From Lepisosteus oculatus (lineage: Eukaryota > Chordata > Actinopteri > Semionotiformes > Lepisosteidae): DNA of 64,000 nt. Under the pieces are notes generated by a model. The model did no database searches. It was not told the origin of the DNA and saw nothing but the letters and a program-made list of their open reading frames with translations. Below, in pieces: positions 14,688 through 58,574 of this stretch. Position 1 is the stretch's first letter; each line of letters begins with the position of its first letter. Location of the stretch: contig NC_090706.1 in NCBI RefSeq assembly GCF_040954835.1, positions 23,507,148-23,571,147 of the forward strand, given 5' to 3'. A program made the position numbers and the translations under genes.

Positions 14688-15209
14688 ATAATAATAATAA
14701 TTGCTTACACTTATATAGCGCTTTTCTGGACACTCCACTCAAAGCACTTTACAGGTAATGGGGACTCCCCTCCACCACAACCAATGTGCAGCATCCACCT
14801 GGATGATGCGATGGCAGCCATAGTGCACCAGAACGCTCATCGCACATCAGCTATCAGTGGGGAGGAAAGCAGAGTAATGAAACCAATTCATAGATAGGGA
14901 TTATTAGCTGGCCATGATTGGTAAGAGCCAATGGAAAATTTGGCCAGGACGCTGGGGTTACACCCCTGCTCTTTTCGAGAAACGCCCTGGGATTTTTAAG
15001 GACCACAGAGAGTCAGGACCTCGGTTTTACATCTCATTCAAAGGACGGCGCCAGTTCACAGTATAGTGTCCCCATCACTATACTGGGACATTAAGACCCA
15101 CATAGACCACAGGGTGAGCGCCCCCTGTTGGCCCCACTAACACCTCTTCCAGCAGCAACCTTAGTTTTTCCCAGGAGGTCTCCCATCCAGGTACTGACCA
15201 GGCTCACAA
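14688..15209 (-). mobile_element. 5S rRNA-derived SINE3, minus orientation, 5' head truncated
   Basis: It starts with an ATA-rich tail and CTTACACTTATATAGCGC (the L2-like 3' tail in reverse), then the family body. It ends inside the 5S-derived head at 'gtctcccatccaggtactgaccaggctcac'. That head is the reverse complement of the 5S rRNA internal promoter region. About 60 bp of head is lost where it meets the LTR-like segment at 15216. Confidence 0.85.
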
Positions 15210-32515: not shown

Positions 32516-32817
32516 CAAACAATTATAACATTACTCGATTTAAAAAATGTAATTTTTATTGTACACATTAACATTTGGCTGTCTTTTTGTATTGCTTACC
32601 TTTATAGTATTTATGAAGAAAAGCCTAGCAATTTCTGGAGATTGTTTGTGTAGTGACACTGTTAATTGTAAAAGGGACGGTGTTCACAGCTGCAAGATTT
32701 AGTAGGTTTGAGGTGAAGTATGAAAACCAAAATCCAAAATCAATCAAGCAGCTGGAGCCAATATGTTATAACCAGCATGGCAATGTAAATCAGAGTCACA
32801 TACTTAATCAAACTTTA

Positions 32818-33339
32818 ACAATAATAATTCCTTACACTTATATAGCGCTTTTCTGGACACTCCACTCAAAGCGCTTTACAGGTAATGGGGACTCCCCTCC
32901 ACCACCACCAATGTGCAGCATCCACCTGGATGATGCAACAGCAGCCATAGTGCGCCAGAACGCCCACCACACATCAGCTATTAGTGGGGAGGAGAGCAGT
33001 GTAATGAAGCCAATTCATAGATGAGGATTATTAGGAGGCCATGATTGGTAAGGGCCAATGGGAAATTTGGCCAGGTTACACCCCTACTCTTTTCGAGAAA
33101 CGCCCTGGGATTTTTAATGACCACAGAGAATCAGGACCTCGGTTTTACATCTCATCTGAAGGACTGCACCTGTTTGCAGTATAGTGTCCCCGTCACTATA
33201 TTGGGGCATAAGGACCCACATGGACCACAGGGTGAGCACCCCCTGCTGGCCCCACTAACATCTCTTCAAGCAGCAACCAGGCTTACACCTGCTTAACTTC
33301 ATTGGGTTGACATTTGTGAGTTGCAGAGTGATATGTCAT
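32818..33339 (-). mobile_element. 5S rRNA-derived SINE3, minus orientation, head deletion
   Basis: Near full-length, from the AATAATAATT tail to 'gagttgcagagtgatatgtcatg'. About 40 bp of the 5S-derived head, including the GATGGGAGACC box, is deleted at about 33275-33281. Confidence 0.85.
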
Positions 33340-34089: not shown

Positions 34090-35115
34090 ATGAGCACCAA
34101 AATCCTCCTGATTGTAACTCTTGCTGTCTCTGTGGCTCTTTCACAAGGTACAGTATGTTCCTCATTCTGCAGCTCCTGCTTCAGTCTGATTTAGAAATAC
34201 TAGTTTTTTTAGCAGCAGGGCAGCCTTTAAAATGTGAAACATGCAAGACCATTTTTACTTGTAGATTGAGAATTTCATTTTTTTCACTTTCAGATCTTGG
34301 AGCTGGAAGTTCGCGGTGTCTGTGTCATCGTGTCCGGGACAAGATGGTGGGTCACCCCAAATCCATCAAGAATTTGGAAATCTACCCTCCGTCCAGCTCC
34401 TGTGAACACACGGAGATCATGTGAGTCCACTATATTGATGCAATTTAGAATTTTTATATGTTTGTGCAGTTATTTTAAAACAATTCCTCTTTCTCATTGA
34501 GTGCAGTACAATTATTGTGGTATCTGAGCAAATATCAAATATTTTAGTTACGTTTTTACCAATCACAATAATGTGTGTTATTACCTTAGACATCTTCTTC
34601 ATCTTTTCTGGTTCTTCTCTGAATAAGAATAATGTGGTTTATGCTCTGTTGTTCCCAGTGTCAGCACATCATAATGAGCTGTTCTTGTTTGTTTTCAGTG
34701 TCAACCTGAGAAATGGGGTAAAGTACTGTCTGGATCCCAATGCAAAGAAGATCAAAGAGTTTATCATGAACTTCCAAATGTAAGTAAACATATTTGATAC
34801 AAACTTGCACTTAATACAAATTCAAGTTTTATTGAACTTCTTGAAAAAGGAATTATTAGTTATAATTCCATAGTTTCATAAATATGTCATTAAGTCATTA
34901 TGTGTGTTAATCAAACTTAATGGTGTGTTTAAGCAAACAAAATACCACCACAGATGTATGAATGAAAATGCCAATCACCAAGAGATACAGTACATTAGTT
35001 CTTATTTTTAGCTTTCTCTGTGGGTGGAAGAATGTTCATATTTTCATGCAGAAAAACTCATACAATGTTTCTATTCCCTCTTCACAGAAAGAAGGCAAGC
35101 CCAGCCGGAAAGTAA
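34090..35115 (+). CDS. CXC chemokine 2 (ELR-negative, CXCL9/10/11-like), four exons
   Basis: Coding exons are 34090-34147, 34294-34420, 34699-34779 and 35088-35115, all with GT/AG introns and the usual 1-2-2 phases. The product is 97 residues. It has a signal peptide (about 1-19), then SSR-CLC with cysteines at 28 and 30 and no ELR. Cysteines 56 and 72 complete the fold. EIIVNL (60-65) and YCLDPNAKKIKEF (71-83) are classic CXC strand-3 and C-helix signatures. It is a compact 1-kb gene. Exon sizes (58/127/81/28) are identical to chemokine 3, and both begin MSTK, so they are tandem duplicates. The start is fixed by the TATA distance and the signal peptide. It is a secreted leukocyte attractant, and the receptor (CXCR3-like) is inferred from ELR-negative status. 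The basic tail KKASPAGK may bind glycosaminoglycans. Confidence 0.93.
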
Positions 35116-36925: not shown

Positions 36926-37610
36926 TTATATGTACAATTTACATGTACAACACATGTTCAAGTGAGGAGCTGTGTCATGAACTGCAAAGGAAGAGAAGTT
37001 AATTTAAAGCTGAGAAGCAGAATTATAGCCAATATACTGAACCCTTCTTTTTTCTTCTTGCCTTCTACTTAAACCCTGCTTGTTAATTTATGCTGAGAAA
37101 TAGCTGACCGGCAAAGCTAAATTTTGTAATCTTATTCATACTGGCTCTCTGAGCCTGGTTGTGGGTGTTATATTGAATTCCATGAAAATGCTTTAACTAC
37201 AATCCGCACAAAGAATCCTATGAATAATAAAACATAATTCAGCATTTTGTTTCTATTATTTCACATTCCACAAAAATACAAGCAAATATTAAAAAGAAAT
37301 CCGATTAAAATATAGCTTGCTAAAAATATATATGGCATGATATTATGTTATCTTTTACCAGATACATACTTCATGAAAATCATACAAATAAAGAATTTAC
37401 AGTGGCTATTAATTCAGAAAAAAAATTTAAGTTATGTAATTGTATGTCACAGAATCTATCACTTTATTTTTAAATCAAATTTAGATATATATATAGCCAT
37501 TATTTATTAAATTAAAATAGTATACAAAGTATAACATATGTTACAGATATTTTTATTTCGCACAGATGTAATATTTGTTTTTGGAGCTCACAAACTGTTT
37601 TATTTATGGT
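36920..37610 (-). repeat. Segment inverted relative to 52100-52975
   Basis: The reverse complement aligns over most of its length with 52100-52975. Shared landmarks in order are GAGYTCCAAAAACAAATATTA, TTTAATAAATAATRGCTA, TTAGCAAGCTATATYTTAAT, TTCATAGGATTCTTT, GGAATTCAATATAACACC, GGCTCAGAGAGCC and GACACAGCTCC. Identity by eye is about 70%. Its nature is unknown: either an unnamed interspersed repeat or an old inverted duplication. Confidence 0.75.
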
Positions 37611-37680
37611 TTCACTCACCAGCAAAGATTTTCTGTTCCATGCCTATTTGTGTATAAAATAGTAACTATATTATTAATGT

Positions 37681-37990
37681 AGGGGGGCACAGTGGTGCAG
37701 TGATTAGCAGTGCTGCCTCGTGATCCTCGGTTAATTTAAGGCCTGAGGTGCTATCTGTGTGGAGTTCATATGTTCTCCCAGTGTTCACATAGGTTTCCTC
37801 AAATTTACTCCCTCACTCCCAAAAACATACTGGGATATTCTACATCGATGTGAGTACATGTCTGTCTGTGTATCTGTCCTTTGATGGACTGGTGTCCTGT
37901 CCAGGTTGTACTCTTTTGCTTGCAGAGTTAGGGTCTGGCAAACTTGCAAACCTTAATTGGAAGAAGCAATTAGAAATTGGACAGATGGGT
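37681..37990 (+). mobile_element. tRNA-derived SINE, plus orientation
   Basis: GGGGGCACAGTGGTGCAGTG starts the head. The body has 'gtgtggagttcatatgttctccc', 'tggactggtgtcctgtccagg' and the tail 'gaagcaattagaaattggacagatggg'. Confidence 0.8.
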
Positions 37991-38442: not shown

Positions 38443-39025
38443 GCCAGCAGCCATATCACCCTGCAACTCACAACTGGCAACCCACTGAAGCTAAGCAGGT
38501 GTGAGCCTGGTCAGTACCTGGATGGGAGACCTCCTGGGAAAAACTAAGGTTGCTGCTGGAAGAGGTGTTAGTGGGGCCAGCAGGGGGCACTCACCCTGCA
38601 GTCCATGTGGGTCCTAATGCCCCAGTATAGTGATGGGGACACTATACTGTAAAACAGGCGCCGTCCTTCGGATGAGACGTAAAACTGAGGTCCTGACTCT
38701 CTGTGGTCATTAAAAATCCCAGGGTGTTTCTCGAAAAGAGTAGGGGTGTAACCCCGGCGTCCTGGCCAAATTTCCCGTTGGCCCTTACCAATCATGGCCT
38801 CCTAATAATCCCCCTCTATGAATTGGCTACATTACTCTGCTCTCCTCCCCACTGATAGCTGATGTGTGGTGAGCGTTCTGGCGCACTATGGCTGCCGTCG
38901 CATCATCCAGGTGGATGTTGCACATTGGTGGTGGTGGAGGGGAGTCCCCATTACCTGTAAAGTGCTTTGAGTGGAGTGTCCAGAAAAGCGCTATATAAGT
39001 GTAAGCAATTATTATTATTATTATT
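38443..39025 (+). mobile_element. Full-length 5S rRNA-derived SINE3 with target duplication
   Basis: The head starts GCCAGCAGCCATATCACCCT and keeps the pol III internal promoter: an A-box-like AAGCTAAGCAGG (38488-38499) and the C-box region GCCTGGTCAGTACCTGGATG then GGAGACC (38505-38531). The body follows. The 3' tail AAAGCGCTATATAAGTGTAA then ends in (ATT)n. AACTC at 38438-38442 and 39026-39030 is a clean target duplication inside the Tc1 element. It is the best-preserved copy in the window. Confidence 0.92.
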
Positions 39026-39040
39026 AACTCTGCTGCCATT

Positions 39041-39346
39041 TCAGGCCATTTTTCCCAGTCTCTTTCTTATGGTGGAGTCATGAACACTGACCTTAACTGA
39101 GGCAAGTGAAGCCTGCAGTTCTTTGGATGTTGTTGTGGGTTTTTTTGTGACCTCTTGGATGAGTCGTCGCTGCACTCTTTGGGTAATTTTGGTCGGCCGG
39201 CCACTCTTGGGAAGGTTCACCACTGTTCCATGTTTTCGCCATTTGTGGATAATGGCTCTCACTGTGGTTCGCTGGAGTCCCAAAGCTTTAGAAATGGCTT
39301 TATAACCTTTTACAGACTGATAAATCTTAATTACTCTGTTTCTCAT
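39041..39346 (-). pseudogene. Tc1 transposase N-terminal DNA-binding fragment
   Basis: 101 codons on the minus strand read as the paired-like helix-turn-helix region of Tc1 transposases. IYQSVKGYKAISKALGL, VRAIIHKWRKHGTV and SGRPTKI (the GRPR-like linker) are visible. Upstream codons are interrupted by a stop, and the DDE catalytic part is lost beyond the SINE junction. Confidence 0.85.
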
Positions 39347-39841
39347 TTGTTCCTGAATTTCTTTGGATCACAGCATGATGTCTAGCTTTTGAGGATCTTT
39401 TGGTCTACTTCACTTTGTCAGGCAGGTCCTATTTTAGTGATTTCTTGATTGAGAACAGGTGTGGCAGTCATCTGGCCTGGGTGTGGCTAGAGAAATTGAA
39501 CTCAGCTTTCCAAAGATGTGATAAACCACAGTTGATTTATGTTTTAACAGGGGGGGCAATCACTTTTTCACACAGGGCCATGTAGGTTTGGATTTTTTTT
39601 TCCCTTAATAATAAAAACCTTCATTTTAAAACTGCATTTTGTGTTTACTTGTGTTATCTTTGTCTAATATTTCAATTTGTTTGATGATCTGAAACATTTC
39701 AGTGTGACAAACATGCAAAAAAATAAGAAATCAGGAAGGGGGCAAACACTTTTTCACACCACTGTATATGTATATTTTGGGTAGTTATTTCAGTGGCATT
39801 CAAAAGTGTTTGGGAAGAATATACCTATGTATCTCAAAATT

Positions 39842-41500
39842 CAATTAAATTTATTTTTATATAGTGCCTTTCACAACAGGGTTAACCCAAAGCATTTAAC
39901 AATGCAAGTGATCATAAATGTTGTGAATACAGAACAGAAAAGACCAGAAGACAATGGAGGAGAGGAACCAAGAACTCCTTAGGAAGGAGAAAAAACTCTA
40001 GGGGCCCAAGGTAAACAGGCTGCCCAACCCCTTTGGGCATGTTAACATTATACAATTAAAAAAATAAATAGATGAATGAGAATATTAATCCATTCATCAT
40101 GTCTTCTGTATGTCAGTACTCCATGAAGATCTCTGTAGACCTCCTAAACGATAGCTATATCCACGATGTCCCTCCTGGATCCATGGCAGTGATGCAGCAT
40201 CCAACTCAGATGGTGCCCAGCCAACATAATGAAAACGATTACTTAAATATGAAGTAAACCACTTAAGGACAGTTCCAAATAAGCCAACCTCAAACTCAAG
40301 CCTGTGTAACAAGACAGAGTGATCAACTGTGTCAAAGGCAGCACTAAGATCTAGAAGCACAGGCACTGTTGCATTCCCCGTGTCAGTAGCTAACAGAATA
40401 TCATTTACGACTCTTGTTAGTGCAGTTTCAGTGTTGTGGCCTGGGCGGAAACCAGACTGAAATTTCTCAAGTATATTATTTATAATAATAATAATAATTG
40501 CTTACACTTATATAGCGCTTTTCTGGACACTCCACTCAAAGCGCTTTACAGGTAATGGGGACTCCCTTCCACATCCAGCTTGATGATGCGACGGCAGCCA
40601 TAGTGCGCCAGAACACTCACCACGCATCAGGGACCAGTGGGGAGGAGAGCAGAGTAATGAAGCCAATTTATAGAGGGGGATTGTTAGGAGGCCATGATTG
40701 ATAAAGGCAGATGGGGAAATTTGGCCAAGATGCCGGGTATTTGATTCTAGATACGACTGAAATTGGGCCACAAGTATTCTCTCAAGAATTTTAGCTAGAT
40801 ATGGGACGTTTGAGACAGGCCTGTAGTTGTTAAGAACTTGTGGATCAAAATTTGGCTTCTTAAGGAGCAGTCTAACAACCGCTACCTTAAATTGATCAGG
40901 TACTGTGCAACGCCTGATGCAAAGGACATGTTCATCATACTAATTATAGGTCCTGCCAGTACTTCAGGAGAATCTTTGACTAGCTGAGTGGGGATGGGAT
41001 CTAGCGGACAGGTGGTTGACTTTGTCTCAATAATTAATTTCTTGAGTTCTTGTTCATTAACTAATTGAAAAACACAATAGAGGTTCTTATATTGTTTCTG
41101 TATTTCTTGCGACTTCTTTGGGGCTTATTTGATTGCGTCTGAAGTCTGATGGTGTTAATTTTATCTTTAAAGAAGTTCATAAAATCATCACTACTAAAGT
41201 TAGATGGTACTATAGAATCGTATTTGTCTTATTTGTAAGAATAGCTATAGTCTTAAATAGGTAGTGAGGGTTATTTTTATTGCTTTCTATAACTTCAGAG
41301 TAGTAAACTTAACGAGCTCTATATACAGGTAGGGCTTTCTTGCAGTATATTGTTGTAGGCTATCAGTCCATGCCGACTTGAATACTTGTAGACCAGTAGA
41401 CCTCAATTTGCACTCTAGTTTGCAGTACTCCTGTTTAAGGGATCGTTTGTGATCATTATATCATGGAGAAATAGCAGGGTTGTTCAGAGGCAACTCGCAA
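39842..41500 (-). pseudogene. L2-type LINE ORF2 reverse-transcriptase region, minus strand, split by a 5S SINE
   Basis: Reading leftward from about 41500, the minus strand shows an NKNNP-type linker, FFKDKINTIR, DPIPTQLVKDSPEVLAG, NYRPVS and [19 protein letters not shown]. After the SINE come FQSGFRPGHNTETAL and LLDLSAAFDTVDHS, the RT fingers/palm signatures of the L2 clade. The frame is broken in several places. The 3' end near 39842-39870 has TATATAGTGCCTTTCACAAC, an L2-like tail. The element is inactive. Confidence 0.85.
40482..40737 (-). mobile_element. 5'-truncated 5S SINE3 inserted in the L2 LINE
   Basis: Only the L2-like tail and about 230 bp of body are present. TATTT at 40477-40481 and 40738-40742 is a target duplication. 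Removing the insert rejoins the RT frame between QSYLE and the FQSGFRP block. Confidence 0.85.
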
Positions 41501-42639: not shown

Positions 42640-43834
42640 ATGAGCACTAAAGTCCTTCTGATCGTGGCTCTTGCTGTCACAGTGGCTGTTTCGCAACGTA
42701 AGTACAATTCTCTTTTGCTGCTTTTTAGCTTGATACTGCATATCTGCTTTGGCATTTAGAGTACAGGGATGGTGTGTCTATTAGAATTGCCTTGTTTCCA
42801 GTCACATATCTAACAAGATAAAACTAGTGTGAATAATGGGAAAACATTAAAATGTAATGCGCTAGTCATTTAGAGAATAATGCTGTTGTCTGCAGTTTAC
42901 TACAAAAAAATAAATCATTTTTCCTGTCTTGACCAATCTTGAAACTCCCAAAAAATGGACAGTATGTTTGTTGTGGAAAGCCCTATAGTTCTAATTGTTC
43001 TTTTGTCCTCAGATATCGCCAGTGACAGCTCTCGATGCCTATGTCAGAGGACCCGACAAAAGATTGTAGGAAATCCCAGACAAATCAAGAATGTGGAAAT
43101 CTTCCCTCCCTCCAACTTCTGTGAAAACATGGAAATCATGTGAGTACAGAGTATGGAGGCAGCTGACAGATGAAGCAATAATATTATTATAATATGACTA
43201 TTTATAAAAACATATTTGTGGAAATCCCTTAGAAAGATTATATGCAATGTAATTAACATCCTGCACATTAAATGCATGTTAAGACATAGACCTTTTTGTA
43301 TAATTGAGCATTATAGATTTTCCTCAGCATTTCCGCCACTCACCATGTCAGAGAGTGATGATTCCTTCTGGTACATTTTCAGTGTCAACATGGATGGTGG
43401 GGCTCATTATTGTTTGGATCCAAACATGAAGAAGATCAGAGAAATCCTCCAGAAGCTAAGAACGTAAGTTGTGTTTATTTTAAGTTCAAACATTCTCCTG
43501 TGTTCGCAAAAATCTAGGAAATATTTGTTTTAATAACCAGAGGAGGTGGGTATGCAACTGACTATAGACGAAGATCATGTACTGTTATATATAACTTTTA
43601 CAGATGCCATGTATATTTTTGTTCAGTTTAATATATATTTACAAGCATATAAGGAATTGTTTCATAATGGAATTGTTGAAGACTTGAATTGCGCTAAGAT
43701 CATCTACATTATATTTAAATTCTCAGTGTCTATTGCCTTGTAATTGTACTGAAGATTGTACATGGGAAAACATTGTATTCATGTGCTGTATTATCTCTTT
43801 CCGCAGGAAGAGATCAAGCAAAAATCTCAATTAA
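42640..43834 (+). CDS. CXC chemokine 3 (ELR-negative, CXCL9/10/11-like), four exons
   Basis: Coding exons are 42640-42697, 43013-43139, 43383-43463 and 43807-43834, with canonical splice sites and phases 1-2-2. The product is 97 residues. It has a signal peptide (about 1-19), SSR-CLC (cysteines 28 and 30, no ELR) and cysteines 56 and 72. EIIVNM (60-65) and YCLDPNMKKIREIL (71-84) lead into the C-terminal helix and basic tail TKRSSKNLN. It is the tandem paralogue of the gene at 34090, with identical exon lengths and shared promoter and leader sequence ('aaaggaagtgggt' and 'gcaagtctgaaccatgag'). The two mature proteins differ mainly in the 31-45 loop and the 30s-40s turn, which contact receptors in known chemokines. 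The role is a secreted, inducible leukocyte attractant, inferred from the family. Confidence 0.93.
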
Positions 43835-45046: not shown

Positions 45047-46603
45047 CCTATCTAAAGCAGAATTTTGAAAAGGCATTTGACAGAAAAGAAAACTCTGAAA
45101 CCCGCCCAAATGTATTGGACAGTCTTTCCAAAGAGTAACTTTCCTTGTTTGTAAGAGTGAAAGAAATGGCACAATAAAACAACACTAATGTTTGCACTAA
45201 TATTTTGCAGCCCTTACTTGTGGAATGGAGCTGTAATTGAGTTCAATGGCTTTTCTCTTTCTCTTATGTAGCAAGGGAACTTATATATACAGTACCTCGA
45301 TACATCTGTCTCTATTGTTCTCAGGAAACCTAGATGACAGATAAACAGATAAGATAAACAGATACTTTATATGCTTGGACAAAGATCTCTCAGAAAATCC
45401 ACTGAAATTCTGATTCAAATGAAAAATTTATTGGAATGAAAAGAGTACATGTGCACTCCTCCCATAAGAATGATCTCTATCGTATCAAAGTTGTATTATG
45501 TACAGTAGGAGCCTGGAAAGTTATTGTTATGACAACAGTAGTAGCCAAAGAAGGAACAGAAACAGAAAATGCAAAACCAAGAGGTACTATAGAATAGCTT
45601 TGTACATAGACAGCATCTCATTCATTGTGCATTATTTGGGTTATACTGTACAGGTTTTGTAATTATTTTTAGAAATTCATGATTAACTCCACACACAAAT
45701 TCAGAAATTCTGAAAAGATATGTAACTATTATGTATGTATACAGTATGTATGTATCTACAATACACTTTTTCTTTTACCTTAATTAGTTGTTCTGTCCTT
45801 CTATTCATTGGATTATAGAATTCTTAAATACGCAGCCAGAAGACGTACTACACATAACCACGCTGACATTAGACCCTGTTCTTTTTTTGGCATCTGAATC
45901 TAAAGTGTGAATCTTCCACCAGGGGCAGTTGTGGGTCTGTTTCCATTACAGACAGAAACTTAATGGTTATAACATAGCAGCACCCATTTTCTGGTCATTC
46001 ATTTTACATTATAACACCCCAGTGCAGGCTTCACATTACGTTCTGCACAACAGTGGAAAACAAAAGAAGAGACAGCAGAAGAAGAGGGTGTAACTTGAAT
46101 CTTTTGCTTTGATTATAGTCTGATCTCTGTCTGCTGTAGTAAAGTGCAGGACAGGTCTCTCTCTACTTTTTATCCCAGATAGCTCTCAACATGGAAGTTT
46201 GCATAATCATTTACACTTTGCTTCTTTTTTGGTATTTTTAAAATATACTAAAGCATGTTCCAAAAATGCAGTTCACAACATGTTCTTTCATGCTCTGCAA
46301 AAAATGTTAACATTAAATGATTGTTCTACACAAGTTTGTGTTCAGCTATGCAGTGTTGTGACTCACCGCAAGACCCTACACACATGCACACAGCATTTTG
46401 ATCTTGTTTTGTCGGTGGGCTCCAATCCAGTCCCACTGTTTACTGTATGTATGAGCACATTACAGGTTCCAAACCAACAAATATATCAGCAAAGTACAGT
46501 AGATGTAATCTCCAGGAGAACACAGAGATTACTGAGCATAGAAACTGATTTTAAGCATAAAACAATGCTACCATCCAACAACAGACACAGTGTTATAAGA
46601 TTA
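45047..46603. other. Intergenic, no gene recognised
   Basis: No exon or RNA gene supported. A long frame beginning at 46199 only survives by running into the 5S SINE at 46604. Confidence 0.35.
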
Positions 46604-47160
46604 ATAAAAAAAATTGCTTACACTTATATAGCTATTTTCTGGACACTTCACTCAAAGCACTTTACAGGTAATGGGGACTCCCCTCCACCACCACCAATGT
46701 GCAGCATCCACTTGGATGATGTGATGACAGCCAAAGTGCACCAGAACACTCACCACACATCAGCTATCAGTGTGGAGGTGAACAGAGTGATGAATCCAAT
46801 TCATAGATGGGGATTATTAGGAGGCCAAGATTGGTAAAGGCCAATGGGAAACTTGGGCAGGACACTGAGGTTACACCCCTACTCATTTTGAGAAAGACCC
46901 TGGGATTTTTGAATGACCACAGAGAGTCAGGACCTCAGTTTTACATCTCATCCAGAGGATTTTACAGTATAGTGTCCTCTGGATAAGATGGGGCATTAGA
47001 ACCCACACAGACCACAGAGTGAGCACCCCCTGCTGGCCCCACGTCCAGCAGCAACCTTAGTTTTTCCCTGGAGACCTCCCATCCAGGTACTGGCCAGGCT
47101 CACACCTGTTTAGCTTCAGTGGGCAGCCAGTTGTGAGTTGCAAGGTGACATGGCTGCTGG
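46604..47160 (-). mobile_element. 5S rRNA-derived SINE3, minus orientation, full length
   Basis: From AAAAAAATTGCTTACACTTA to 'gacatggctgctgg'. Both the 5S-derived head ('ctcccatccaggtactggcc', 'gtttagcttcagtggg') and the tail are present. It is diverged, for example GCTATTTTCTGG in place of GCGCTTTTCTGG. Confidence 0.88.
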
Positions 47161-47164
47161 CTAG

Positions 47165-50100: not shown

Positions 50101-50325
50101 TTTGCACTTTGCCAGAGGCTAAGGATCTTCTAGGTTTAAGATAACTTTTTGGTCTTGTAAGTCTACATAAGTGTCAAAGTCTTGTTTCTGTGACATCTTG
50201 TTCTTGAGAATGTACCCTTTCGTAACATTTCAGCATTTTGTATTCAGTGAGACTATAAAAAGAGGGAACAGAGTTGCATAGGATAAAGACAAGATAAGAT
50301 AAATAGATATATACAGTAGCATATG
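47165..50325. other. Intergenic, with one possible non-autonomous element
   Basis: 48377-48715 is bounded by CCAGGGGTGCCCAGACCTGG at the left and 'gcaggacctagagcaaaga' at the right. This is reminiscent of hAT-type MITE ends in fish (low confidence). Nothing else is recognised. Confidence 0.35.
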
Positions 50326-50863
50326 TAATAATAATAATAATAATTGCTTACACTTATATAGCGCTTTTCTGGACACTCCACTCAAAGCGCTTTACAGGTA
50401 ATGGCAGCGACGGCAGCCATAGTGCGCCAGAACGCTCACCACACATCAGCTATCAGTGTGGAGGTGAACAGAGTGATGAATCCAATTCATAGAGGGGGAT
50501 TATTAGGAGGCCATGATTGATAAAGTCCGATGGGAAATTTGGCCAGGACGCCGGGGTTACACCCCTACTCTTTTTGAGAAACGCCCTGGGATTTTTAATG
50601 ACCACAGAGAGTCAGGACCTCGGTTTTACGTCTCATCTGAAGGACGGCGCCTGTTTACAGTATAGTGTCCCCGTCACTATACTGGGGCATTAGGACACAC
50701 ATGAGCCGCAGGGTGAGCGCCCCCTGCTGGCCCCACTAACACCTCTTCCAGCAGCAACCTTAGTTTTTCCCAGGAGGTCTCCCATCCAGGTACTGACCAG
50801 GCTCACACATGCTGAGCTTCAGTGGGTTGCCAGGTGTGAGTTGCAGGGTGATATGGCTGCTGG
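50326..50863 (-). mobile_element. 5S rRNA-derived SINE3, minus orientation, internal deletion
   Basis: The tail (AATAATAATAATAATTGC) and the 5S head end ('gggtgatatggctgctgg') are both present. About 45 bp are missing after 'ggtaatgg' at 50405. Apart from that the copy is well preserved, suggesting relative youth. Confidence 0.88.
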
Positions 50864-51856: not shown

Positions 51857-52012
51857 TTACTTTGTAATCGCTTCTTCCATTTTGGGGTCACAGTGGAGCC
51901 AGAGGAAACCCAAATGTGGAGAGCAAATACATTCCATACAGATAGCACCCCAAGTCCAGAATAGAGCCTTGCGCCATGAGACAGCAATGCTAACCACTGT
52001 ACTGCTCTACTT
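51857..52012 (-). mobile_element. tRNA-derived SINE fragment, minus orientation
   Basis: 'cgcttcttccattttggggtcac' (reversed 3' end) joins directly to 'gaggaaacccaaatgtggaga' and 'gcaatgctaaccactgtact' (reversed head). The central body is deleted. Confidence 0.65.
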
Positions 52013-52099
52013 TAGTAACATAGTTCTGAATGTATGTAGTAACAGGCATGGGATCCAAAATATTTACTGGGGCATGAAACTGTAAATAATACCTTTTCT

Positions 52100-52975
52100 G
52101 AGTTCCAAAAACAAATATTATAGCTGTGAGAGAAAAATATTCTTTTTAAAAATTTAAATAAACTCTATTATACAATGCATACAATTTTCATTTAATAAAT
52201 AATAGCTACTGTATATAACTATAGGTCATTAAATACATTTTCTAATATTTTATACATTCATAAATTGTGATTATTATTACTATTATTATTAATAACAATA
52301 ATATTTTCATTAAGAGTTTACTAAATCTGATTTAAGAATGAAACAATACATTCTGTGACATTTCATTAATACATTTACATAAATAAGCCAAATAATGTAC
52401 ATACATTATACATAATTAAGAGCAACACATTTTAAAATAGTTTTTCTAAATTCATAACCTCCATACAGTGTATCTTTATTTGTATGAGTAAAATATGTAA
52501 ACTATCTTATAAGAGATAAAACAATATCATGCTGTAATTATATTTAGCAAGCTATATCTTAATCAGGTTTCTTATTAATGTTTTCTTGTATTTTTGTAGT
52601 TTTTTGTAGAAATGTCTGTAGTTTTAAATAATTCAACCAAAATGCTGAATTGTCTTATTGTTCATAGGATTCTTTACAGCCATTATAGCTCAAGCTTCTT
52701 CTTGGAATTCAATATAACACCTACTGTATAACAAGGCTCAGAGAGCCAACAGGAATAAGATAATAAGAAATGTAGCGTTGCTGGTCAACTGTTGCTCAGC
52801 ATAAATAAACAGGCAGGTAGAATGAAAGAAGAAAGGTTCAGTATTGTTGTTTATAATTCTACTTCCAGCTTTGAATTATCTTCTACTTGTTCCTTTAGAG
52901 CTCATACACTGACACAGCTCCTTGCTTGAACCTGTGTTGTACAGTGGAGGGTACACATAAGTTGTATCTGTTCTC
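52100..52975 (+). repeat. Segment inverted relative to 36920-37610
   Basis: Partner of the block described at 36920. It is longer by insertions, including an (ATT)n-like stretch at 52270-52300. Its right side is followed by a + orientation tRNA-SINE, mirroring the minus SINE beside the other copy. Confidence 0.75.
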
Positions 52976-53560: not shown

Positions 53561-54563
53561 TAGGATTGTATTTCTGTACCTGAAACCCCTAGAGAGTAGA
53601 CAAATTTAGACTGTATCATGGTTATAAAACTTTATAACTTCACTCATTCCCCATTAAATCTTTTCATTTAATATTGAAAATATTCTTTTCAAATGATCAA
53701 GCAAATGATGCAAATGATCAGCCATTTAATGAATTGAGCGATCACGTCTTAAGGCAGAATGGAAATTCATTATCATGCTTACTCAAAAAGTTTATTAAAA
53801 CCTTTTATTTGATTTTCAGTCCATCTCCTTTTTACATTAACTGTTTGGGATGTCTGGCTTTTCTGACAAATTATTTGTGATATTACAAAATATATCTTAG
53901 AATTGTGAGGTGAGTTTGACCAATTTACCAAAAATCAAATGTAATATTTTGCAAACATAAGACAACTCACTGATTTTTTAAAGATTTTGTTTTGTAATTT
54001 TGTCTCTTTTTAAAATGTATACTACAATGAATAAAATTTGTAACAAGTAATGGGCTATTTTTTAGTTCCTCTTTAGCAATGTACTTCTAACATAATTCTC
54101 TGAAATCCCCTGTGGGCATCAAATAGGAAGTATTAAACACAATTTATGAAAACAGCTGTCAAGAAATAGAAAATAGTGCCACTCCAGTGCCACTCCAGGA
54201 AGCCTGTTTGTCGTATCTGTTCCAGAGATTTACTTTTAAATTGTACTTTGGAGACAGCAGGGTTTAGCAAAGAAATTCGAGTTGAATTCATTGCTATTAA
54301 AATCTTAAATATTTCATATAAATAATTATCATATAAAATAATTGTAAAATTGTAAAAATTGTAATGTAAAATCCCATTCATATTTGTTTAATATATTTCC
54401 TTCTCTACCGTATGCAATCCGAGGATTGAAAAAAGACATTGGAAAACACAAACGCTTATACTGTAGCTGCCTCTTAGTCTTACTGCACCAGTAGGTGTGT
54501 CTCCACCTGCTGGCGTAAATGCTAATTAAAAATGCGGTTCAATAATAGTGTCCAATAAATTAT
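53561..54563. other. Intergenic, no gene recognised
   Basis: AT-rich with chance frames only. I looked on the minus strand here for a chemokine relic that an inverted duplication might have carried and saw none. Confidence 0.35.
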
Positions 54564-54799
54564 TGTAACGCAACGGGGGCTCCGGCGGGCGCCCTTGCCG
54601 CATCTGGTCGGCCCCTGCACCGTCCGGGGCTCGAACCCGGGACTTCCGCGTCTCTCTGCAGCGACCTAGCCCCGTGAGCCAAAGAGAGATCTCTCCACAG
54701 CCCAGTAGCTGTGGTCCTGCTATCACAGGGAAGGGCGGTGACGTCACCCGCTCTGGTACGCCGGCTCTTACACAGCGCCTGTCGGCCGTAAGCGTTACA
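54564..54799 (-). repeat. TRIM 3' LTR with tRNA-like boxes and CRE
   Basis: On the minus strand, TGGCTCACGGGG (54681-54670) resembles box A. GGTTCGAGCCC (54637-54627) is a full box B match, flanked by a perfect 5-bp T-stem CCGGG/CCCGG. TGACGTCA, a perfect CRE, is at 54739-54746. Confidence 0.8.
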
Positions 54800-54861
54800 C
54801 TCTCCCCCGCTTAAATCGCCGTCCCCGGCGAAGGGCTATCCCGCCCCGCTTCTGACACCAA

Positions 54862-55097
54862 TGTAACGCAACGGGGGCTCCGGCGGGCGCCCTTGCCGCA
54901 TCTGGTCGGCCCCTGCACCGTCCGGGGCTCGAACCCGGGACTTCCGCGTCTCTCTGCAGCGACCTAGCCCCGTGAGCCAAAGAGAGATCTCTCCACAGCC
55001 CAGTAGCTGTGGTCCTGCTATCACAGGGAAGGGCGGTGACGTCACCCGCTCTGGTACGCCGGCTCTTACACAGCGCCTGTCGGCCGTAAGCGTTACA
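54862..55097 (-). repeat. TRIM 5' LTR with tRNA-like boxes and CRE
   Basis: Same sequence as the other LTR. Box A-like is at 54979-54968, box B at 54935-54925 and CRE at 55037-55044. Being 5' in the element's direction, this copy would act as the promoter. Confidence 0.8.
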
Positions 55098-55599
55098 TTA
55101 TAAATAGTCCGGTATTCTAAAATATATTTCAACAACGCCATTTAATAAAGAAAGACACTGTATTTTAAAAAGAACATTGTAAGACGTTTAGCTTCAATCT
55201 CAAGGTTAATTTTGCATTTAAATTGCCTACTACAGTATTTCGTTATGCATTTGTTAAGGCTTTACAGACTTACAGACGCAAATACCCACTTAACCTGAAT
55301 ATTATTTTTGTTGCTTAGCAATGCAGACTATTTGCCCAAGTGAAACACGTTTATTTTAAACATAACTATGTTGTGATCAATAAAGGCAGACTTTGAAACC
55401 TGCTTTTATGTCTGCTCAACGAAAAGCCTCGTTTGTTGACCGATTTTAAGGTTAAACGAAAGTCAATAAAACAGAGTATACTTACTTCTAATTCAAATTA
55501 AATAATGTTGTACATGAAAGAAAGTGTTTAGTTGAGTCTACTTGCAATCAAAACATTAATACCGGCACCAGCTGTTGAGCATTTATCAAGATTCCGGTT

Positions 55600-57819: not shown

Positions 57820-58392
57820 TAATTTATTTTTTAAAATCTTACAATTATATAGCACTTTTCTGGAGACTTCACTCAAAAGACCTTTACATGTAATGGGGAC
57901 TCCCCACCACCACCAATGTGCAGCCATCACCTGGATGGCAGGCATAGTATGCCAGAATACTCACCACACACCAGCTATCAGTGGAGAGCAGAACAGAGTG
58001 ATGAAGCCAATTCATAGATGGGGATTATTAGGAGGCCACGATTTGTAAAGGCCTAGGGAAAATTTGGACAGGATGCAAGGGTAAGACCCCTACTTATTTC
58101 GAGAAACATCCAGGAATTTTTAATGACCACAGAGAGTCCGGACCTCGGTGTTTGCATCTCGTACAAAGGACTGGGCCCTTGGGCTATGTCCCCATCACTA
58201 CACTGGGGCATTAGTGCTCACACAGACTTTAGGGTGAGTGCGCCCTGCTGACCCCACTGACACCACTAACACCACTTCCAGCAGCAACCTTAGCTTTGCC
58301 AGGAGGTCATCCATCCAGGTACTGACAGGACTCACACCTGCTTAGCATCAGTGGGTTGTTAGTTGTGAGTTGCAGGATCATAAAGCTGCTGG
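57820..58392 (-). mobile_element. 5S rRNA-derived SINE3 in macroH2A1 intron 1
   Basis: Diverged but full length, from 'aattatatagcacttttctgg' to 'gcaggatcataaagctgctgg'. It ends about 150 bp before the first coding exon. Confidence 0.85.
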
Positions 58393-58574
58393 CAAATTAT
58401 ACTGCTAAATCGGAAACTGTGAAAGTGTTTTTACCCCCACTAAAATGCTCTTGTTAGGTATTTCAATAAATATCTGTACAGACATGTTGAGGAGAGTAAA
58501 CAGAACATTAGTTTCCGTGGCATTGAGTTTTTTTCACTTCTCCAGACCTACAATTTCAGACTGGCAACAGCACT

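Follow-up and report, generated by a model that had tools for sequence, protein, structure and literature searches.

Helenus is the name given by Kojima (2024) to TRIMs that carry tRNA-derived sequence in their LTRs (PMC10886601). According to this description, the hosts are coelacanth, sturgeon and paddlefish, together with several Ostariophysi, zebrafish among them. The fish families are LTR-11_DR with its Ostariophysi relatives, and the coelacanth families are LTR1_LCh and LTR2_LCh; zebrafish LTR-11_DR alone accounts for 5575 LTRs and 2618 interiors (PMC10886601). The published traits are 4-bp target duplications in animals, a primer-binding site (PBS) for tRNA-His, -Leu or -Lys in vertebrates, a length of 311–1263 bp, and the motifs TRGCY in box A and GGTTC in box B, and the elements are mostly unable to encode a tRNA (PMC10886601). 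The description is repeated in one sentence of a 2026 meeting report (PMC12859917), and these two papers make up the literature since 2023 that was found, by title or passage, to deal with a Helenus or TRIMp3 element. Among the matches listed in a search of titles and abstracts, fish TRIM families were described in PMC10886601 only, and the literature search returned no other paper naming LTR-11_DR. The first-pass annotation of the locus reported here had held that well-formed vertebrate TRIMs are rarely described, a statement that is out of date since the fish and coelacanth Helenus elements were published in 2024 (PMC10886601).

The element reported here occupies positions 54564–55097 of a 64,000-nt stretch of Lepisosteus oculatus DNA (the window). 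Compared via the published traits, it resembles Helenus in its putative tRNA-like Pol III promoter within the LTR, its 4-bp duplication, its PBS type and its size. Ajax, a TRIM of nemerteans, likewise combines a Pol III promoter with a PBS for tRNA-Leu, but its promoter is 5S-derived and its target duplications measure 5 bp (PMC10886601). Cassandra, a plant TRIM, also has the promoter of a small-RNA gene in its LTR; unlike the element, it carries 5S rRNA sequence and is known from land plants. A Cassandra or other 5S-type TRIM was considered for the locus and rejected, as no 5S match lies inside the element; the three 5S-like matches of the window, starting at 38443, 47043 and 50746, are all located outside it. 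The tRNA-headed SINEs (SINE2) likewise have A and B boxes of tRNA origin, but they are LINE-mobilised and are not known to carry LTRs, a PBS or a polypurine tract (PPT).

The element is complete and bounded by LTRs. Its 534 bp consist of two LTRs (54564–54799 and 54862–55097), identical at 236/236 nt with a start-to-start distance of 298, and a 62-bp interior (54800–54861). A 4-bp target duplication, TTAT, is present on both sides (54560–54563 and 55098–55101), the order being AATAAATTAT, element, TTATAAATAG. The outer ends are of the TG...CA type, and the LTR termini form a perfect 8-bp inverted pair, starting with TGTAACGC and finishing with GCGTTACA. The PPT, GGGGGAGAG, adjoins the 3′ LTR at 54800–54808 on the minus strand. 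The PBS, TGGTGTCAGAAG, has its single occurrence in the window at 54849–54860, also on the minus strand, one base inward of the 5′ LTR. Since PBS and PPT both lie on the minus strand, the element is read on that strand, with 54862–55097 as its 5′ LTR and 54564–54799 as its 3′ LTR; this pair of signals is found beside the LTRs on one strand only. The PBS was compared with the 3′ end of human tRNA-Leu-CAA, and its complementarity to this end covers all of the first 12 bases, 15 of the first 16 and 17/24 overall.

Two LTRs, a total length below 1000 bp, the lack of a recognisable protein, and a PBS and PPT at the two ends of the interior are what characterizes a TRIM. The first-pass annotation had proposed a complete TRIM with a tRNA-Leu-type PBS, and each of the parts it named was recovered; the minus-strand orientation and the tRNA-like LTR promoter are features that it lacked. 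No further copy of the LTR or of the interior was detected within the window by blastn, and the target duplication is the sole point that speaks against an assembly artefact. This anatomy also bears on the idea that a SINE or a tandem duplication imitates an LTR element here, for which one could cite the SINE-like tRNA head in the LTR and the tandem arrays reported for zebrafish LTR-11_DR (PMC10886601). Such a mimic is extremely improbable in view of the TG...CA ends with their inverted pair and of a PBS and PPT positioned where interior and LTRs meet; moreover, the target duplication lies outside the outermost LTRs, and an A-rich or short-tandem tail is not seen at either end.

The absence of differences between the LTRs (0/236) corresponds to a 95% upper bound on the age of the insertion of ~3.2, 1.6 or 0.6 million years, at assumed rates of 2e-9, 4e-9 and 1e-8 substitutions per site and year, respectively, LTR-LTR gene conversion being ignored. 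The CpG observed/expected ratio is 0.96 in the element versus 0.25 elsewhere in the window; each LTR retains 24 CpGs. As the element is CpG-rich in a CpG-depleted window, its insertion is probably recent, unless it was shielded from methylation. The young age that had been claimed from the identity of the LTRs is supported, the CpG content being an independent sign.

The locus had also been described as without coding capacity. This stands as far as recognisable proteins are concerned: three of the four open reading frames (ORFs) that overlap the element have no Pfam match at E 0.01, and one whole frame of the element, with its stops replaced by X, has none at E 0.001. It does not stand for open frames as such, as those four, stop-to-stop frames of 91–101 codons, are among the 37 window ORFs of at least 90 aa. 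For an autonomous partner, 30 of these 37 ORFs were scanned against Pfam (E 0.01). Three gave a match: a chemokine, a Tc1-type transposase DNA-binding domain and a piece of a reverse transcriptase, 134 aa long. Gag and integrase families were not among the Pfam matches listed for these 30 ORFs.

The matched ORFs and several repeats give a picture of the rest of the window. The chemokine match (Pfam IL8, E 5.4e-05) represents a CXC-chemokine-like exon, for which the nearest solved chain, a weak hit, is CXCL10 (E 0.02). This exon and a segment ~9 kb away are 73% identical (34311–34421 and 43027–43161) and are perhaps a tandem pair of chemokine genes. The transposase fragment, of the Tc1/Sleeping-Beauty type, is open over 39044–39367 (Pfam HTH_SB, E 9.6e-17). 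The reverse transcriptase piece (40100–40501; Pfam RVT_1, E 2.8e-08) probably comes from a broken non-LTR element, and it overlaps a partial copy (40480–40737) of a SINE-like repeat. Six long copies of this repeat, ~520–600 bp in length and 76–93% identical in pairs, are located at 14688–15208, 32816–33335, 38443–39034, 46596–47161, 50318–50863 and 57838–58393. A 5S-rRNA-like head scores above the Rfam gathering score in three copies, and the repeat is probably a SINE3 family. Together with the Tc1-type fragment and the CXC-chemokine-like exon, this repeat makes a fish host plausible. An inverted, diverged pair (36926–37778 and 51918–52960), aligned in two pieces of 73% and 69% identity, is a repeat or a duplication, in either case an old one.

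It had been expected that an autonomous partner with the same LTR ends should exist in the genome. Such sharing is not required: it is argued in PMC10886601, with one fungal pair as the direct example, that a TRIM carrying a Pol III promoter may differ from its partner in the LTRs. The same example is relevant to the proposal that the element arose by internal deletion from a Gypsy element of greater length that had this LTR. Some TRIMs do originate in this way (Figure 1 legend, PMC10886601), but long elements are argued to need Pol II LTRs, and the two members of the fungal pair are similar in their interiors, not in their LTRs (PMC10886601). We regard a deletion derivative as very unlikely. 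The literature search matched no paper on a Gypsy element of zebrafish primed by tRNA-Leu.

On the sense strand of both LTRs, an A-box-like motif, TGGCTCACGGG, is followed 44 bp further by a B-box-like motif, GGTTCGAGCCC. The A-box-like motif lies at 54969–54979 in the 5′ LTR and at 54671–54681 in the 3′ LTR, and the B-box-like motif at 54925–54935 and 54627–54637, respectively (all minus strand). In a standard tRNA, 44 bp is the gap between positions 8 and 52. The box consensuses used here were picked after the sequence had been seen. The loose pair, TRGYNNANNNG for the A box and GGTTCGANNCC for the B box, is present in the LTR with 0 mismatches. None of 2000 dinucleotide-shuffled LTRs reached this (5/2000 with 1 mismatch), and the best pairs on the opposite strand of the LTR and in the remainder of the window have 2 mismatches. 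With stricter consensuses, TGGCTCACGGG has one mismatch to TRGYNNARNNG, and GGTTCGAGCCC, which fits GGTTCGANNCC fully, has one to GGTTCGANTCC. The stricter pairs give 1 mismatch (1/2000 shuffles as good) or 2 mismatches (9/2000), which counts against a Helenus reading. With the motifs of PMC10886601 combined in a guessed register (TRGCYNNNYGG and GGTTC), there is 1 mismatch, and 65/2000 shuffles are as good. The shuffle tests accepted box spacings of 28–60 bp and did not require a T-arm, which is an extra feature of the element.

This T-arm, CCGGG-TTCGAGC-CCCGG, is complete and encloses the B box (54922–54938 in the 5′ LTR, 54624–54640 in the 3′ LTR), and the Rfam tRNA model aligns the same stretch as a T-arm. 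The model scores 11.0 bits on the LTR versus a gathering score of 29 (E 7.7), which is not significant. Its alignment places the D-arm part of the model upstream of the proposed A box, and a non-tRNA Rfam family outscored it on the same T-arm; both points count against a tRNA-derived promoter. Over 651 scanned bases, no tRNA was matched up to E 5, and ARAGORN called no tRNA in the element. The best fold of 73 nt lacks a cloverleaf and does not exceed shuffles in stability (z 0.36; 131/200 shuffles fold as well). The idea that the LTR holds a functional tRNA gene was rejected on the basis of the ARAGORN result, the score of 11.0 versus 29 bits and the fold. An intact T-arm and B box, with the A box at the proper spacing and the fold otherwise lost, is the pattern expected under promoter-only selection. 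With the T-arm kept and the remaining tRNA lost, the LTR would look like it contains a captured promoter rather than a captured tRNA, which is not proof of such an origin.

Possible sources of this promoter were compared by local scores against nine human tRNA genes, with 500 shuffles. The highest scores were obtained for Gly-GCC (44), Asp-GTC (40), Ala-AGC (33), Val-CAC (32), Thr-AGT (31) and Glu-CTC (30), followed by Lys-TTT (24), Arg-TCG (18; 60/500 shuffles as good) and His-GTG (14; 347/500). In the three alignments inspected, the match is mainly on the T-arm side, and no source tRNA is therefore named. Fish Helenus elements have been aligned with tRNA-Val-CAC, according to a figure legend in PMC10886601. 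Exact patterns from the element revealed no relatives in four scans of IMG/VR viral contigs and one of public genome contigs. One of the four IMG/VR pattern scans matched anything, namely the 24-bp T-arm pattern on one contig (28 nt at 96.4%); it was rejected as a relative because it forms part of a tRNA-Lys gene identified with ARAGORN.

Other transcription signals are few. Upstream of the A box, each LTR contains the palindromic, CRE-like TGACGTCA (55037–55044 in the 5′ LTR, 54739–54746 in the 3′ LTR). This motif is common in Pol II promoters. Neither CREB nor TGACGTCA is mentioned in the main text of PMC10886601. The sense strand of the element contains no TATAAA, TATATA, AATAAA or ATTAAA, and no TTTT either, the first TTTT being located 31 bases into the downstream flank. 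The palindrome, the missing Pol III terminator inside the element and the imperfect A box (by the stricter consensus) speak for a conventional TRIM whose LTR drives Pol II transcription and in which the tRNA-like stretch is a passenger. Against this reading, the T-arm and the B box have survived unbroken and the A-box motif is kept at tRNA spacing while the remainder of the tRNA fold is lost, and the sense strand is devoid of a TATA box and AATAAA. On balance, this explanation seems rather unlikely.

Placed by the published description, the element is very probably a Helenus-type non-autonomous LTR retrotransposon with a tRNA-derived Pol III promoter in its LTR (“TRIMp3”). The GGTTC of box B is present, with GGTTCGAGCCC set in a complete T-arm. 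In box A, TGGCT fits TRGCY, and CGG comes one base earlier than in the assumed register, resulting in 1 mismatch. The duplication, TTAT, has the 4 bp typical of animal Helenus, and the PBS corresponds in 15 of its first 16 bases to tRNA-Leu, one of the primers given for vertebrates in PMC10886601.

For such a Helenus-type element, Pol III would initiate a short distance upstream of the A box of the 5′ LTR, and transcription would continue across the interior and into the 3′ LTR. Minus-strand synthesis would then be primed at the PBS by tRNA-Leu(CAA), the strong-stop DNA would be transferred to the 3′ LTR copy, and the purine tract would prime the plus strand. Reverse transcriptase and integrase, borrowed from an autonomous element, would make and insert the DNA, producing the 4-bp duplication. 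The donor of these enzymes for animal Helenus is argued to be the Gypsy superfamily (PMC10886601). The Cassandra transcript ends inside the 3′ LTR at an internal Pol III terminator, whereas the element has no TTTT, a difference that counts against the Helenus reading. Without an internal T-run, the transcript probably ends in flanking DNA. The first-strand transfer would still be possible, because R-U5 of the 3′ LTR would then lie within the RNA. It is tentatively suggested, with more doubt than confidence, that this vertebrate TRIM has moved recently and that its promoter is compound, the CRE palindrome acting together with the tRNA A and B boxes. As the element lacks an internal Pol III terminator, its transcript would in this view end at the first flanking T-run, with strand transfer taking place inside a longer 3′ LTR copy, unlike in Cassandra.

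This kind of element is already described in fish. Pol III transcription of Helenus was deduced from sequence conservation, without experiment, in PMC10886601, and a young, complete copy provides a test object for that claim. The locus also illustrates that an LTR element with parts of a tRNA promoter can underlie a small GC-rich block of an otherwise AT-rich, vertebrate-like window.
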